From Cyanobacteria bacterium UBA8803 (GTDB lineage Bacteria > Cyanobacteriota > Cyanobacteriia > Cyanobacteriales > Coleofasciculaceae): a stretch of DNA of 14,768 nt. Of this stretch, positions 2,139-8,742 are shown piece by piece. The translations under genes were made by a program, and so were the position numbers. The stretch covers positions 1-14,768 of the forward strand of contig DNXU01000365.1 of NCBI GenBank assembly GCA_003505715.1. Reading direction: 5' to 3'. Below the pieces are notes generated by a model that was not told the DNA's origin, searched no databases, and was given only the letters and a program-made list of their open reading frames with translations. Each line of letters opens with the position of its first letter. Positions within the stretch are counted from its first letter, which is position 1.

Positions 2139-4532
2139 ATGAATGCCGAACTTTACAAATATTACATCGGGGGCTGCCTGCCCCTTGATGCCCCAACCTA
2201 CGTGACTCGGCAGGCAGATGACGAACTCTACCGAGGTGTAAATGCTGGAGAGTTTTGTTACGTCCTCAACTCCCGACAAATGGGTAAGTCCAGCTTGCGA
2301 GTCCGCACGATGGAGAGACTTTCTAGGGAGGGTGTGGTATGTGCTTCAGTTGATTTGACCGCCATTGGTAGCCAAAATATTACTCCCGACCAATGGTATG
2401 CCAGTGTTATCTATACCTTAGCCTGTAGCCTCAATCTCTTAGACGAACTCGATCTGAGTGCTTGGTGGTGCGATCGCCAATTTCTCTCCCCTGCACAACG
2501 CTTGAGTGAATTTATTCGAGAGGTACTGCTCAGAGCAATTCCTCAAAACCTGGCCATTTTCATCGATGAAATTGACAGCGTTCTCAGTCTGAATTTTCCA
2601 GTAGACGATTTTTTTGCCTTAATTCGCTCCTGTTACAACCAGCGTGCCGATCATCCCGAATACCAGCGCCTCACCTGGGTACTTTTGGGAGTGGCAACCC
2701 CCTCAGATTTAATTCGTTCTCCTCACTACAGTACACCGTTTAATATCGGTCGCGCCGTTGAACTGGCTGGCTTTCAATGGCACGAAATTCAGCCTTTAGC
2801 TGAGGGGTTACAACAGGTATTTAGCAATCCCCAGGCAGTTCTAAAAGAGATATTGCAATGGACGGGAGGTCAGCCCTTTCTAACGCAAAAGCTCTGCCAG
2901 TTAATTGTTAAAGAATCAGGGCAATTGCGAGCAAATGGCAAATCCTGTATTAAGGGGGAGGAAGCCAAGTGGATTGAGCAGCTAGTGCGATCGCATTTAA
3001 TTGAGAATTGGGAAAACAATGATGAGCCGGAGCATCTCCGCACCATCCGCGCTCGACTGCTGCAAAACGAACGATATGCGATCGGTATACTAGGACTATA
3101 CGAACAAATTTTACAACAAGGGAAAATTGCCGCCGATGACAGGCCAGAACAAATCTATTTGCGATTGTCAGGGTTGGTTGTCAAGCAAGATGGTAATTTG
3201 CAAGCTTACAACCACCTTTACCAGGCTATTTTTAATAAAGATTGGGTTAGTAAAGCATTAAATAATCTGCGCCCCTATAGTGTGAAAGTAGTGGCTTGGG
3301 AAGCGTCCAACCGACAAGAAGAAGCTTATTTGCTGCGAGGACAGGAACTGCAAGACGCCTTGACATGGGCAGCAGATAAGAGTTTAAGTGAGCGGGATTT
3401 CCAATTTTTAGCTGCTAGCCAGAAAAATGCCAATGAAATACTTACTCAAATAGTATGGGAGCTAGTATCGCCCCTCTCTTTTACCGAAGTTAGTCCTCAG
3501 GTAGAGGCTATCCTTAAACGGTTACAGCAAGTTTCAGGAGATTACTCCTTAAAACTATTGAAAATTAAGGCTGGTAGTACAATTCTAGTCTTACAAGGTT
3601 CTGAAAAGGGGTTCGAGCGGATTAGCTCTCTACTCAGCACCGGACAATTGAGTGAAAGTGTGGGTATTCTGGTTCGGGATGTCAGGTATGCTGGTGGTCA
3701 GGATAGCGATTGTCTTTTATCTGAGTTAATTAGTCGGTATCCTTACTTGTACGACCATTGTTTGCTGAGTGAGGATAGGTCTTTAGAAGATAAACAACAA
3801 ATCCAGCAACTCCAAGCGCAAATGCAGCAGCAATTTGAACTTCATCTGTCACGGTACGCAACTTACTTAGTGCAGCGCAGCAAAATGAACGATCAAACTT
3901 CTTTGTCTTTACAGCCAGTGTCAAATCCTACTCTCTTAAGTGATGAACAGTTATTACTTGCTCTCAAGGAATTTGCTGGAAAAGTAGATGGTTCCCATAC
4001 TTACAAAGACTTGGCTCATATATTCCTAGCTCTTACTTGTCAAACTCCGTCCTATCGAGAGTTCAAGAAAAATTTATACGAGTACATGATTCAATCGATT
4101 AAACCCGAATATGGTAAGCATTATTTTAATCAGTGCTTGTCTCAACAGTTAGACAATATTTTCCATGAAAGCGATTCTCAGAAAGTCAATAAATTTCTAT
4201 TAGTAGAGACTTGTCGTCAACTGTTTGACTTTTTTGTACAAAGCCCCAACCGACCAGAACACTTATATTTTATTGAATTAATTGCTAATAACGGTTCTCT
4301 GAGAACAACGGGTCTTTTGCTAAAAATTGCGCTGTTATCCCGCCAAGCTAAGCCTCATCTAGGAAAGCGATTTTTTATTTTGTGCAAACATTATCAATCT
4401 CAATCTATAGACAATAAATTTTACTTGGTGGAATTGATGGAAAATTTAAATGTGGCTTTAGCATTAAATATTGGTTCTATGGATGCTAGTGGTCTAGCAA
4501 GTTATTTATCGGAAGTTCCCCCGTACAGATGA
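2139..4532 (+). CDS. AAA-like ATPase with TRADD-N-like and helical C-terminus
   Basis: Second ATPase of the pair. The gene begins after gaggag (2126-2131), a strong ribosome site lying against the stop codon of the preceding gene. Residues about 4-370 are an AAA-like domain: YYIGGCLP start, P-loop SRQMGKSS (about 43-50), Walker [11 protein letters not shown] (about 138-147), sensor-like [11 protein letters not shown] (about 241). The [20 protein letters not shown] segment (about 406-427) is the usual exit from this ATPase in cyanobacteria, where WD40 repeats often follow. Here WD40 is absent. Residues about 430-517 ([19 protein letters not shown], then SSLLSTGQL) recall TRADD-N-type domains of bacterial effector-associated modules; this is recalled resemblance only. 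A Gln-rich probable coiled coil (about 550-580) and a wholly helical, unrecognised region (about 600-797) end the protein. The C-terminal third reads more AT-rich than the front. Likely partner of the upstream TIR-ATPase in one complex or pathway. Confidence 0.85.
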
Positions 4533-4903: not shown

Positions 4904-7900
4904 TTAGAAATATTCTACTGTGATGATGATATTGGAGCTGTCATCAAACACCTTGATGAAACTGGTATTGATGCTTTGGTTGTAATACCACGCATTCTTA
5001 GATGATGCGTTTAAATCATCACTCCATGCCAACTGCGGAATCTCTTGTCCACCTATCTTGACACTCTTCAAGCAACCTGAACTACCTCTAGTTTCAGATG
5101 GAGCGTGTAATAGCGCGACAAAGAAATAGGTTTCAAACTTCGGCGTGTAGCCATCATGGACCCGCTCTACTTTTATCTGGCGCGTCTTTTCACTAGTGTA
5201 GGAATGCGATATCTTTGTCTGACGATATTCGTCGTTAGCCTCCTCATCACATCCAGATTGCGGCGGCCTCTTCGGAGCAGAAGTACGGCTCACCCCATCA
5301 TCAAGGTACATCGTGTACTCACCATGCTCACCTGGATAGACATTCAGAGTGATCGGATTGGGCTTACCTTCCTTATTAAGTTGTCCCACATATTGTTCAA
5401 GTTCAATCGTAGGAATAATTGCACTCTCTCGCACATACATGGGAACGATGAAATTAATGTGATTGCCTTCCAAATGAAGACTAGCATCAAAATCTCGAAT
5501 CGTTGTACCACCCTCAACAGCATCACCAAGGGGCATCATGTTGTTCATAAAACAGTACCAATCACTGCCGTATGGAAGGTAAACATCCCGCTTGCCGTAG
5601 TTTTGCTGAAGTCCCTGGGGTTGCTCGGGGTCTAAAACCGGAGCAATTAACAGATCCTTACCCACAAAAAACTCATTGTCTAGGAAAGATTCTTTGTCAT
5701 TGTAGAGTGATTGGTCGCCAGGATCGTTAATAAATAGAGGTCTGGATATCGGCAGTCCATTGAGTGTGTTCTCAAACAGCGCGTCGTAGAATAACTGCAT
5801 CAGCCGATACCGCAATTCAATGTAGTGCTTGCAAATCGGCAGTACCATGCGGTACAAATCTTGCGGCTCCGGCAGATGTCCACCCTGATATTGGTTAAAC
5901 CATTCTACATACATGAATGGCTCTTGAAACTCTTTACGCCCTTTACGGACATAATGATTCCGGAACCAAGGCAGAAAAGCACCCGCCGCCGTCCAGCGAA
6001 TCAGCAGTTCTGGACTAGCCCATTTGCCTTCATCGATCGCAGACGCTTCAAAACCCCCAATATCCTGACCATTGATTGCCAATCCGCACATACCAAGTGA
6101 AAGCACTTGGGAGACATTCATCTTCAGAAAATCCCAGTCCGAAGAGTTGTCACCATTCCACAATCCCGCATATCGATGCGCCCCACAGTAGCTACCACGC
6201 CCAATGATAAAGTTCCGCTTGTTATCTCGCTCTTTCAAGTTAGGATATTTGGGATCATTAAGTTTGTGCAGATTGTTTAATCCCTCGTATGTAGCTTTGT
6301 GAAGATTGTAAGAGTACAAATTCCACACTTTAATCGCTGGCGTTAATTTAGGCTCCTCATCAGAGTGGGAATTATCCGTCACTAATAAACGAAAAGGAAA
6401 ACCCTTCATATCCCCACGAAAATCGCGAATAGCAGGTGTTGTCATATCCTGCCAAACCATTTCTAGCCCCATGGAATAGAGGTATTTATATTGGGTTCCC
6501 CACCACTCACGTACCTCTTGCCGACCCAGATCCGCGTAATGACCAGAAGCCCCTAGCTCATTACCGTAGGAATCGTTTCCGTAGTAGACCCCACCAATAT
6601 AGGGTTCTCCACTATTGAAACCTTCGACCCAGCCATTATTGGGAGAGAATTCATGACCGCTACCATAAAGCTGATAAATTTTGCTATTAGGATTATCAGG
6701 ATCGTAACGTCGATCCATTACGAAATACCCTTTTTCCTTAGCCTCAGCGTAAGTTGAATAATTGGAGTCTAGTCGGCTAATCACTGGGGTAATGTTAGTG
6801 CTGCATTTCACGCCCTGGTCTTTTAAGCGGTGAAACATCCCGTAGGGATCGGGGAATTTATTTGTATCAATCGTGAAGGTTTGGTAGTTATTCTGGATAT
6901 CCACATCCACGTGCATCCCATCCAGAGGAATTTGGTATTCCCGATGCTTACGAACCGCCCATTCTACAATGTCCTGACGTTCGTAGCCATAACAACCTTG
7001 GTGATATCCCAAACAGTAGCGGGGTTTCAAGCGCGGTCTGCCTACAATTTCCGTATAACTATCCAGAATGTTGGCAGGGTCATGACCAATAAACAAGTAA
7101 AAGTCAAGGTCACCAAAGCGAGTCCCGAACATATAGCGACTGGAATTGATATAACCGACATCGACAAAGACTTGGCCGGTATTATCAACAAAAACGCCTG
7201 TGACACTATCATATTCGGGAACGCCATGAAATTCGTAAAAGAACGGCTCTGAATGGTAAAGAGGTTCCCGTGAGTCTAAGGGGCCGCGATCATAAACCTG
7301 CCGATACCGCATATTATCAAAGTTGAAATAGTTGACTTGTGCGGTATTTTTGCTTAGAGATTGCCCACCTTGTTCACCAAAGCCAACATATTTGGCATTT
7401 GCTGGCTTATTCACAGACTGAATAATGGCGTAATCATTATTTCCGTTAGGGGTATAGTAAATCGGAGTATCTGCTGTCTTCCAAACAATATACTCTTCAT
7501 GGGGAGCAAACATATAGACTGTAATTGAAAATGGCTGATGATTGACAACCACTTTCATTTCTGGTTTATTATCCCCATCCTTCGTCACCAGTTCGATGCT
7601 GTTGCTGCCATCTTTTACCTCGATATCAAAATGTTCGTTGCTGTCGAGCAGTCTCGTCAACTCGTGAAAGTTGTTCAAAAGTACTGAAGGACTATTTTTT
7701 GAAGAATAGTCCTGGGCAGTTTTTCCGGGATTGAAGCGCAACCGGAAAGTATCCTTTTGGGGAAACTGCATGAGCATACTGCATGGCTTGCCATCGCTCT
7801 TGCTAAAATTCAGCGTCAGAGTTTTGGAACTAGCATCAAAGGCGTGATTTTTGACGGCTCCCAGTTTCTCCCATTCTTTATACCTGCCAAAATAATCTTC

Positions 7901-7951
7901 TACTTTGAGAAATTTGTAGGCATCGTTGTCAGAAAAGATTTGATTTGGCAT
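4904..7951 (-). CDS. GH31 alpha-1,4-glucan lyase
   Basis: Predicted to cleave alpha-1,4-glucan (glycogen or maltodextrin) from the non-reducing end by elimination, releasing 1,5-anhydro-D-fructose (EC 4.2.2.13). The sequence closely recalls red-algal (Gracilariopsis) lyases: GYHQGCYGYERQDIVEWAV (from about residue 314), IPLDGMHVDVDIQNN, CSTNITPVIS and QYKYLYSMGLEMVWQDMTTP. The nucleophile motif is WQDMTTP with D502; GH31 hydrolases normally have W-x-DMNE, so the TT replacement points to lyase. D601 in LWNGDN stands where GH31 proteins have their acid/base, 99 residues later. N-terminal beta domains reach about 310, the barrel about 310-720, and C-terminal beta domains 720-1015. The length fits algal and fungal lyases (about 1030-1090) better than ordinary GH31 enzymes. 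No signal peptide, so probably cytosolic. A strong ribosome site, aaggagag at 7961-7954, fixes the start. It lies 74 bases after the cupin gene in the same direction. Such lyases are best known from red algae and fungi. Confidence 0.9.
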   Translation of the reverse strand: MPNQIFSDNDAYKFLKVEDYFGRYKEWEKLGAVKNHAFDASSKTLTLNFSKSDGKPCSMLMQFPQKDTFRLRFNPGKTAQDYSSKNSPSVLLNNFHELTRLLDSNEHFDIEVKDGSNSIELVTKDGDNKPEMKVVVNHQPFSITVYMFAPHEEYIVWKTADTPIYYTPNGNNDYAIIQSVNKPANAKYVGFGEQGGQSLSKNTAQVNYFNFDNMRYRQVYDRGPLDSREPLYHSEPFFYEFHGVPEYDSVTGVFVDNTGQVFVDVGYINSSRYMFGTRFGDLDFYLFIGHDPANILDSYTEIVGRPRLKPRYCLGYHQGCYGYERQDIVEWAVRKHREYQIPLDGMHVDVDIQNNYQTFTIDTNKFPDPYGMFHRLKDQGVKCSTNITPVISRLDSNYSTYAEAKEKGYFVMDRRYDPDNPNSKIYQLYGSGHEFSPNNGWVEGFNSGEPYIGGVYYGNDSYGNELGASGHYADLGRQEVREWWGTQYKYLYSMGLEMVWQDMTTPAIRDFRGDMKGFPFRLLVTDNSHSDEEPKLTPAIKVWNLYSYNLHKATYEGLNNLHKLNDPKYPNLKERDNKRNFIIGRGSYCGAHRYAGLWNGDNSSDWDFLKMNVSQVLSLGMCGLAINGQDIGGFEASAIDEGKWASPELLIRWTAAGAFLPWFRNHYVRKGRKEFQEPFMYVEWFNQYQGGHLPEPQDLYRMVLPICKHYIELRYRLMQLFYDALFENTLNGLPISRPLFINDPGDQSLYNDKESFLDNEFFVGKDLLIAPVLDPEQPQGLQQNYGKRDVYLPYGSDWYCFMNNMMPLGDAVEGGTTIRDFDASLHLEGNHINFIVPMYVRESAIIPTIELEQYVGQLNKEGKPNPITLNVYPGEHGEYTMYLDDGVSRTSAPKRPPQSGCDEEANDEYRQTKISHSYTSEKTRQIKVERVHDGYTPKFETYFFVALLHAPSETRGSSGCLKSVKIGGQEIPQLAWSDDLNASSKNAWYYNQSINTSFIKVFDDSSNIIITVEYF

Positions 7952-8025
7952 AACTCTCCTTGGGTAATCAAGTCCCCTATCTGTTGTTCAGTAATTAAAT
8001 TCGGCGCGATCAGAGCTATCTGAAT

Positions 8026-8742
8026 CTAAGGGAGCGGATGAAATTCATTGGCCATCCAAATGCAGTCAGTATCAGAATAATACTGATGCCACGGATAAAC
8101 AAAGTTGCCATTTTCTCCCACACTGGCAAAAGGAATGTGGGTATCACCCGGACTCATAATTACATCTTCGTAGATGGTATCGAAGTTATTGGCATGAAAC
8201 TTTTGCATCCTTCCTGTACCGTATATCTGAGTATGAACCTCTAGGAAATCCGGTTCCATGTGTTTGTTGTGGATCGCGCAATTGGTCTTAGCTGGGGCAA
8301 ACCACAAATTTACTTTGACTTGGTATTTCTTGAGATTGCTGTCTTTCGGTTTATCAGATTGTCCGGTTACAAAGTAGGGATCGAATTTGGCGATTCCCAA
8401 ATCATATTGGGTAGATTTCCACAAAGGCACCTCTTTGGGAAATTCCATTAAATTTCCCAATATATCCCATCCGGACTCCAATACTATCCCTCCGATATTG
8501 GTTTCATTGAAGATTTCGATTAACAGCAAAGAGTCACCATCTTTAATAGTCACGTCTTTGAGAATTGTTGAAGTCCGAGGAAGCAAATATTTTTCTGGCG
8601 GCGCTGAAATATGCGCCTTTTGATTGCCGAGATTGACGACGATTGTCCATTTTTCAATATAATAGTTGCGAACATCCGTCAGCCATGTAGTTTTCAGATA
8701 TTTTTCCGAAAACTTAATGTTTTTTTCAGTATTGTTGGGCAT
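8026..8742 (-). CDS. Cupin-like protein, candidate 1,5-anhydrofructose-converting enzyme
   Basis: A 238-residue soluble protein without signal peptide or membrane segment, predicted mostly beta. The second half has cupin-like metal-ligand spacing: H158-x2-H161, E168-x-H170 (FLEVHTQIYGTG), then MSPGDTHIPF with H202, and YPWHQY with H219. The first half (about 15-110) may be another degenerate beta barrel. It is the first gene of a unit with the glucan lyase 74 bases downstream. The pattern resembles, from memory, the cupin part of fungal aldos-2-ulose dehydratase/isomerase, which converts 1,5-anhydrofructose to microthecin. With the lyase next door, a dehydratase or isomerase acting on the lyase product is a reasonable inference but not shown. 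The fungal enzyme also has a propeller domain that is absent here. No strong ribosome site precedes the ATG at 8742. Cupin fold likely; substrate uncertain. Confidence 0.6.
   Translation of the reverse strand: MPNNTEKNIKFSEKYLKTTWLTDVRNYYIEKWTIVVNLGNQKAHISAPPEKYLLPRTSTILKDVTIKDGDSLLLIEIFNETNIGGIVLESGWDILGNLMEFPKEVPLWKSTQYDLGIAKFDPYFVTGQSDKPKDSNLKKYQVKVNLWFAPAKTNCAIHNKHMEPDFLEVHTQIYGTGRMQKFHANNFDTIYEDVIMSPGDTHIPFASVGENGNFVYPWHQYYSDTDCIWMANEFHPLP

Follow-up and report, generated by a model that had tools for sequence, protein, structure and literature searches.

The window analysed here, the whole 14,768-nucleotide stretch of contig DNXU01000365.1 (GenBank assembly GCA_003505715.1) from Cyanobacteria bacterium UBA8803, encodes a glycoside hydrolase family 31 (GH31) protein that is probably an alpha-1,4-glucan lyase and, directly upstream, a cupin-like protein that may act after it. 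The 1015-residue open reading frame had been picked out in an earlier reading of the letters alone (the sequence-only reading), and we found it as described, on the minus strand (Table 1). It matched the GH31 TIM barrel in Pfam with 261 bits against a cut-off of 23.5, with N- and C-terminal GH31 domains flanking the barrel, and Pfam together with Foldseek, in which the red-algal lyase structure 2x2h was the top match, gave the GH31 architecture expected of an alpha-1,4-glucan lyase. The motifs named by the sequence-only reading, VWQDMTTP with D502 and GDN with D601, were both seen in our alignment, within the stretches VWQDMTTPA (nucleophile) and WNGDNS (acid/base). A genome contig search identified relatives encoded at 43 loci, with best segments 32–95% identical to the protein, and the dN/dS values against three close ones (L006, L007, and L008) were 0.13, 0.12, and 0.14; a chance open reading frame was ruled out by these relatives and the low ratios. 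The upstream gene, 74 bp away and unannotated, encodes a 238-residue protein whose fold resembles that of the cupin module in fungal aldos-2-ulose dehydratase (AUDH; PDB 4a7k, 4a7y, and 4a7z), with a match covering 217 residues. Its dN/dS values against the same three loci were 0.22, 0.20, and 0.22.

Table 1. Features of the predicted lyase locus in the window
Feature	Position	Strand	Basis or remark
GH31 protein, 1015 aa, probable alpha-1,4-glucan lyase	4904..7951	minus	ORF, Pfam, alignment, trees, Foldseek
VWQDMTTP codons (residues 499–506)	6434..6457	minus	nucleophile D502 codon at 6446–6448; computed from ORF start
N386 codon	6794..6796	minus	aligned with N459 of red-algal lyase
D601 codon (GDN, acid/base)	6149..6151	minus	alignment
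Stand-alone cupin-module homologue of AUDH, 238 aa, probable partner enzyme	8026..8742	minus	fold, Pfam, clustering
Intergenic gap, 74 bp, cupin to lyase	7952..8025	minus	AAGGAG at 7961–7956 before lyase ATG

In GH31 lyases, as section 12 of a 2025 review describes them, D553 takes the proton with the aid of a hydrogen bond to N459, this asparagine is an isoleucine in GH31 glycosidases, and the water-activating residues are missing (PMC12441222). When D553 and N459 of the red-algal lyase were mapped with a 2x2h chain numbering offset of 11, worked out in this analysis, they aligned with D502 and N386 of the cyanobacterial protein. The nucleophile Asp lies within WQDMT and the hydrolase motif DMNE is absent; the host genome's own GH31 hydrolase (L002) carries IWNDMNEPA. 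In a 127-row alignment, Asn occupied the N459 position in 119 of 120 lyase-type rows and in none of the seven hydrolase rows (Ile in five, Met in one, and Ser in one). WQDMT was present in 117 and none of these rows, respectively, a count that among the loci is partly due to selection because one of the six search patterns contained WQDM; a further set of rows was found starting from 2x2h, with no WQDM pattern involved. Three of the 120 listed lyase matches are included, and copies (L001, L003, and L005), fragments (L031, L035, L044, L045, and L046), and short sequences (P0281, P0296, and P0298) were excluded before counting. The exceptions among the lyase-type rows were L048, in which both markers were changed, and P0277 and P0280, in which only the motif was. 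L048, from Candidatus Paraprochloron terpiosi, has TTIT and WLDMT at the marker sites, as would fit altered chemistry or decay. The sequence-only reading had taken WQDMTTP for the lyase signature; the core WQDMT is indeed common to the lyases, but the exact heptad varies, being WQDMTVP in five rows (P0241–P0245, one unnamed and four named Gracilariopsis, including P0244, which its source calls lyase isozyme 4) and WQDMTSP in three fungal rows (P0319, P0322, and P0323).

Phylogenetic analysis led to the same assignment. In a 47-row tree, for which the root was assumed, eight hydrolases split from 39 lyase-type rows with a support of 100. The lyase-type rows formed one branch of 23 rows in which the query and cyanobacteria are joined by other bacterial and by the three fungal rows (support 100), another of ten rows in which two red-algal rows sit among bacteria (support 100), and a third of six rows including Pseudomonas and Telmatospirillum (support 99). 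The fungal rows joined Gastranaerophilales L027 (support 98). After removal of the columns around the motifs in a 31-row tree, the hydrolase split persisted (100/100), a grouping of the query, L009, and L038 with six hydrolases was rejected (p-AU 0.00014), and the fungal–L027 join was weaker (82/97). The hydrolase rows in the trees and alignment are few (seven or eight), partly fragments, and long-branched, the tree software flagged long branches and unlike composition, and the trees are without the Morchella and Peziza lyases. Pairwise identity to the query was 40–41% for the fungal rows (over 85–93% of the query), 25–26% for the red-algal rows, and 28% for L002, so red-algal lyases and hydrolases could not be told apart by identity alone. 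The GH31 tree that the sequence-only reading had called for groups the protein with lyases and outside hydrolases, also without the motif columns, and its preference for a lyase over a hydrolase is now well supported by two active-site markers, by both kinds of tree, and by a predicted AUDH-like neighbour. An ordinary alpha-glucosidase is disfavoured by both markers and the trees. The ancestor, bacterial or transferred, that it proposed to be shared with the red-algal lyases is plausible but would be old, because the red-algal and the fungal rows are each surrounded by different bacterial ones. Among eukaryotes, the closest rows are those of fungi, not those of red algae.

The AUDH-like neighbour is the strongest new evidence for the lyase reading. 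Fungal AUDH acts on 1,5-anhydro-D-fructose (1,5-AF), the product of glucan lyases. By record titles, 26 of the 43 loci are cyanobacterial and the remainder come from Bacillota, Chloroflexota, Spirochaetota, Pseudomonadota, Acidobacteriota, and other records, metagenome assemblies in many cases. The cupin gene was found no more than 1.7 kb from the lyase gene and on the same strand at 25 loci from several phyla, namely at 22 of the 24 cyanobacterial loci with an upstream flank and at 3 of 17 other loci, where many contigs are short on one side; at L014 and L017 its absence holds for the locus only. Out of 244 genomes in a sample of the phylum, only the window's own yielded the cupin, and the same held for the lyase at a threshold of E ≤ 1e-120. 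Among the listed cupin relatives (the best 120 of 292), cnidarian proteins from Actinia, Nematostella, and Desmophyllum (P0058, P0061, and P0063) were 55–57% identical. Four others (P0052, P0054, P0069, and P0090) begin with what looks by eye like a signal peptide, so export of the enzyme may occur in certain organisms.

The other half of AUDH, a propeller, was encoded on the lyase's strand at 10 of the 43 loci. Nine scanned propellers passed the PF22301 cut-off of 27 bits with 135–209 bits, and the tenth, at L011, was recognised through the genome search (G006); the L038 propeller matched AUDH residues 19–432 (E 6.2e-83), its sole PDB match at E ≤ 0.1. Six cyanobacterial loci have the order propeller-cupin-lyase. 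In Paenibacillus filicis (L025) and Vibrio penaeicida (L042) it is lyase-propeller-cupin, at L027 a partial cupin precedes propeller and lyase, and at L043 the contig ends after lyase-propeller. A functional link is favoured because gene orders differ between distant phyla. No gene other than the cupin and the propeller recurred beside the lyase in more than six of the 43 loci, and a Pfam scan of nine lyase neighbours from seven cupin-less loci and one small L012 protein gave no common family. A gene of 540–583 aa lies directly upstream of the lyase-type gene at L039 (6204–7826), L040, L044, L045, and L047; its L039 and L047 copies had no Pfam match.

Among the genomes of 39 of the 43 loci, 11 have the propeller, 7 of them belonging to the 24 cyanobacterial genomes; one of the 11 carries it apart from the lyase. 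With this search as the positive control, the propeller was found in none of the 244 genomes sampled from the phylum. With the window's own genome excluded from both sides, 7 of 24 lyase-bearing cyanobacterial genomes compare with 0 of 243 others (Fisher p 2e-8, relatedness ignored). Propeller presence changes five times on the cupin tree (at least four on well-supported branches) and Calothrix L029 retains a broken propeller-gene start ahead of its cupin, so loss of the propeller is likely. A decayed propeller within the window was rejected, the best match having only E 0.31. The protein P0064 was rejected as a functional propeller-cupin fusion, since its propeller stops about halfway and its cupin starts internally; we took it to have arisen by deletion or misassembly and to indicate adjacency only. 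A comparison of P0064 with viral contigs gave one locus with a 28-residue match, which was set aside. A second AUDH propeller type occurs in a Limnofasciculus genome outside the lyase locus (L051 2722–9921), in a cluster that contains a GMC oxidoreductase together with ferritin-like and xylose-isomerase-like proteins. With a GMC oxidoreductase and an AP_endonuc_2 protein nearby, it probably belongs to another system.

From the observed homology, active-site residues, gene clustering, and phylogeny, we infer a catalysis, substrate, product, and order of steps as follows. D601 would protonate the leaving glucan while D502 forms the glucosyl-enzyme, and D502, held by N386, would then take the C2 proton without attack by water, releasing 1,5-AF. 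The 238-residue cupin would act next, either on 1,5-AF or on ascopyrone M, which forms from it by dehydration. Where relatives have a propeller gene, the route would run from glycogen through 1,5-AF and ascopyrone M to a microthecin-type pyrone; in the window organism, the cupin is proposed to act alone or with another dehydratase because no propeller gene was found in the host genome. The lyase, cupin, and propeller genes together look like a split bacterial anhydrofructose pathway.

We consider it probable, with considerable confidence, that the locus encodes a GH31 alpha-1,4-glucan lyase with an AUDH-cupin-like neighbour acting downstream. The protein might instead hydrolyse or transglycosylate, as a GH31 enzyme with an unusual specificity in which WQDMT and N386 mark the lineage but not lyase chemistry. 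Structural and profile comparisons leave room for this. In a PDB search with a profile of 16 relatives, 2x2h was the best single-stretch match (251.7 bits vs 221.5 for 3nuk), in Foldseek it led, and it had the longest alignment (881 residues) among the 50 rows shown. Several results weigh against our interpretation, here and in the cupin's part of it. The two-domain maltase-glucoamylase sums to 279.2 bits over four stretches in the same profile search, 2x2h ranks only seventh when the single lyase sequence is used, and by Z it ties with glucosidases, so structure comparison alone leaves lyase vs glucosidase undecided. Sources also call the relatives alpha-glucosidase or GH31 protein, and lyase activity is a prediction. 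However, both lyase markers are present and the water-activating DMNE is absent, the protein groups with lyases even without the motif columns (the AU test above), and AUDH-like genes adjoin it, which makes an unusual hydrolase improbable.

The part played by the cupin carries further points of the same adverse kind. It did not reach the Pfam AUDH_Cupin cut-off (19.4 bits vs 25), and the match was weak in 24 of 28 cupin relatives as well (best E 1.8e-4). The PF22301 propeller of AUDH was found neither in the same protein nor in the host genome, which is 90.7% complete, and a cupin working without it is the weakest step of our proposal. The cupin is linked to AUDH by no more than its fold and a Pfam match below the cut-off, which would suit a chance or regulatory neighbour, yet clustering at 25 loci in several phyla and three gene orders, its restriction to the own genome among those sampled from the phylum, and the co-clustering of the propeller render this very improbable. 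Somewhat more room, though still a minor share, must be given to a true lyase beside a cupin that handles a different 2-keto sugar (glucosone, for instance) or catalyses something other than the AUDH reaction. AUDH accepts glucosone too. Cupin matches were found in 28 plasmid records, and five regions were opened, none with an annotated lyase: in Ensifer, Rhizobium, Thalassospira, and Paracoccus the cupin accompanies catabolic genes, among them those for GMC oxidoreductases and sugar transporters, and in Streptomyces a propeller gene (PF22301, 190.9 bits) directly follows the cupin near an FAD oxidase. These settings fit an enzyme of 2-keto sugars, and because of them a cupin by itself is no proof of 1,5-AF. 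Against such a substrate at the window's locus, only cupin and propeller recur beside the lyase, and the lyase itself would supply 1,5-AF. We therefore retain a lyase with a downstream AUDH-like cupin as the preferred interpretation.

Some features of these other settings deserve mention. The streptomycete FAD protein resembles TamL and AknOx and was rejected as a pyranose oxidase. On four plasmids (L052, L053, L055, and L056), the cupin is clustered with a GMC oxidoreductase and an aspartase-like lyase, and three of the four clusters add a TPP enzyme and a HisD-like dehydrogenase, perhaps an undescribed sugar pathway. The search for a plasmid-borne lyase gave seven records with GH31 proteins of 26–29% identity, which were set aside. 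Elsewhere in the window, two adjacent AAA_35 proteins are encoded on the plus strand, one (281–2134) with LuxR-type HTH and TIR domains and the other (2139–4532) with a TRADD-like N-terminal match; they may form a signalling or defence pair.

The sequence-only reading had proposed a non-hydrolytic, non-phosphorolytic exit from glycogen. The lyase assignment agrees with this, but the host genome contains a full-length match to glycogen phosphorylase, which would make the lyase a supplement to phosphorolysis. If so, a phototroph would have a third way out of glycogen and bacteria their own source of 1,5-AF, the two AUDH halves would become available as small individual enzymes, and it could be tested where the lyases of fungi and red algae came from. 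More speculatively, and with rather less than even confidence, bacteria including this cyanobacterium may channel their own glycogen into an anhydrofructose pathway via the lyase and split-AUDH cluster, fungi and red algae having taken their lyases from two different bacterial branches, and in propeller-less cyanobacteria the cupin alone may convert 1,5-AF to an undescribed product, perhaps an antimicrobial or signalling pyrone.

Sections 12 and 22 of the 2025 review give fungi and red algae as examples of lyase organisms and bacteria as users of 1,5-AF and 1,5-anhydroglucitol (PMC12441222). In the literature searched, mostly outside subscription journals, neither a bacterial glucan lyase nor a bacterial AUDH was reported; specialist GH31 or AUDH papers may mention bacterial lyases. 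The source names seen among the best 120 of 506 lyase relatives were alpha-glucosidase, GH31 or TIM-barrel protein, and similar terms, not glucan lyase, so annotation would hide the pathway. Our comparison suggests that the pathway known from fungi and red algae is also present in bacteria. The red-algal lyase (EC 4.2.2.13; Gracilariopsis, PDB 2x2h) shares the GH31 fold, WQDMT, the Asn at N459, and the GDN acid/base, but is only 25–26% identical and falls in a separate branch with its own bacterial rows; a further difference is the AUDH-like gene that clusters with the cyanobacterial one. The fungal lyase-type GH31 proteins (P0322, source-named alpha-1,4-glucan lyase, and P0319 and P0323) share the branch and markers of the query and nest among bacterial rows; they are not themselves characterised enzymes. 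Phanerochaete AUDH has the same cupin fold and, in its residues 19–432, the propeller of the relatives, whereas the bacterial parts are separate genes and the window has the cupin only. In the fungal anhydrofructose pathway, a lyase, a dehydratase, and an isomerase or tautomerase lead to microthecin or ascopyrones. The bacterial three-gene loci would encode the same kinds of enzymes, but their version, known here from genes alone, is clustered and its AUDH is split.
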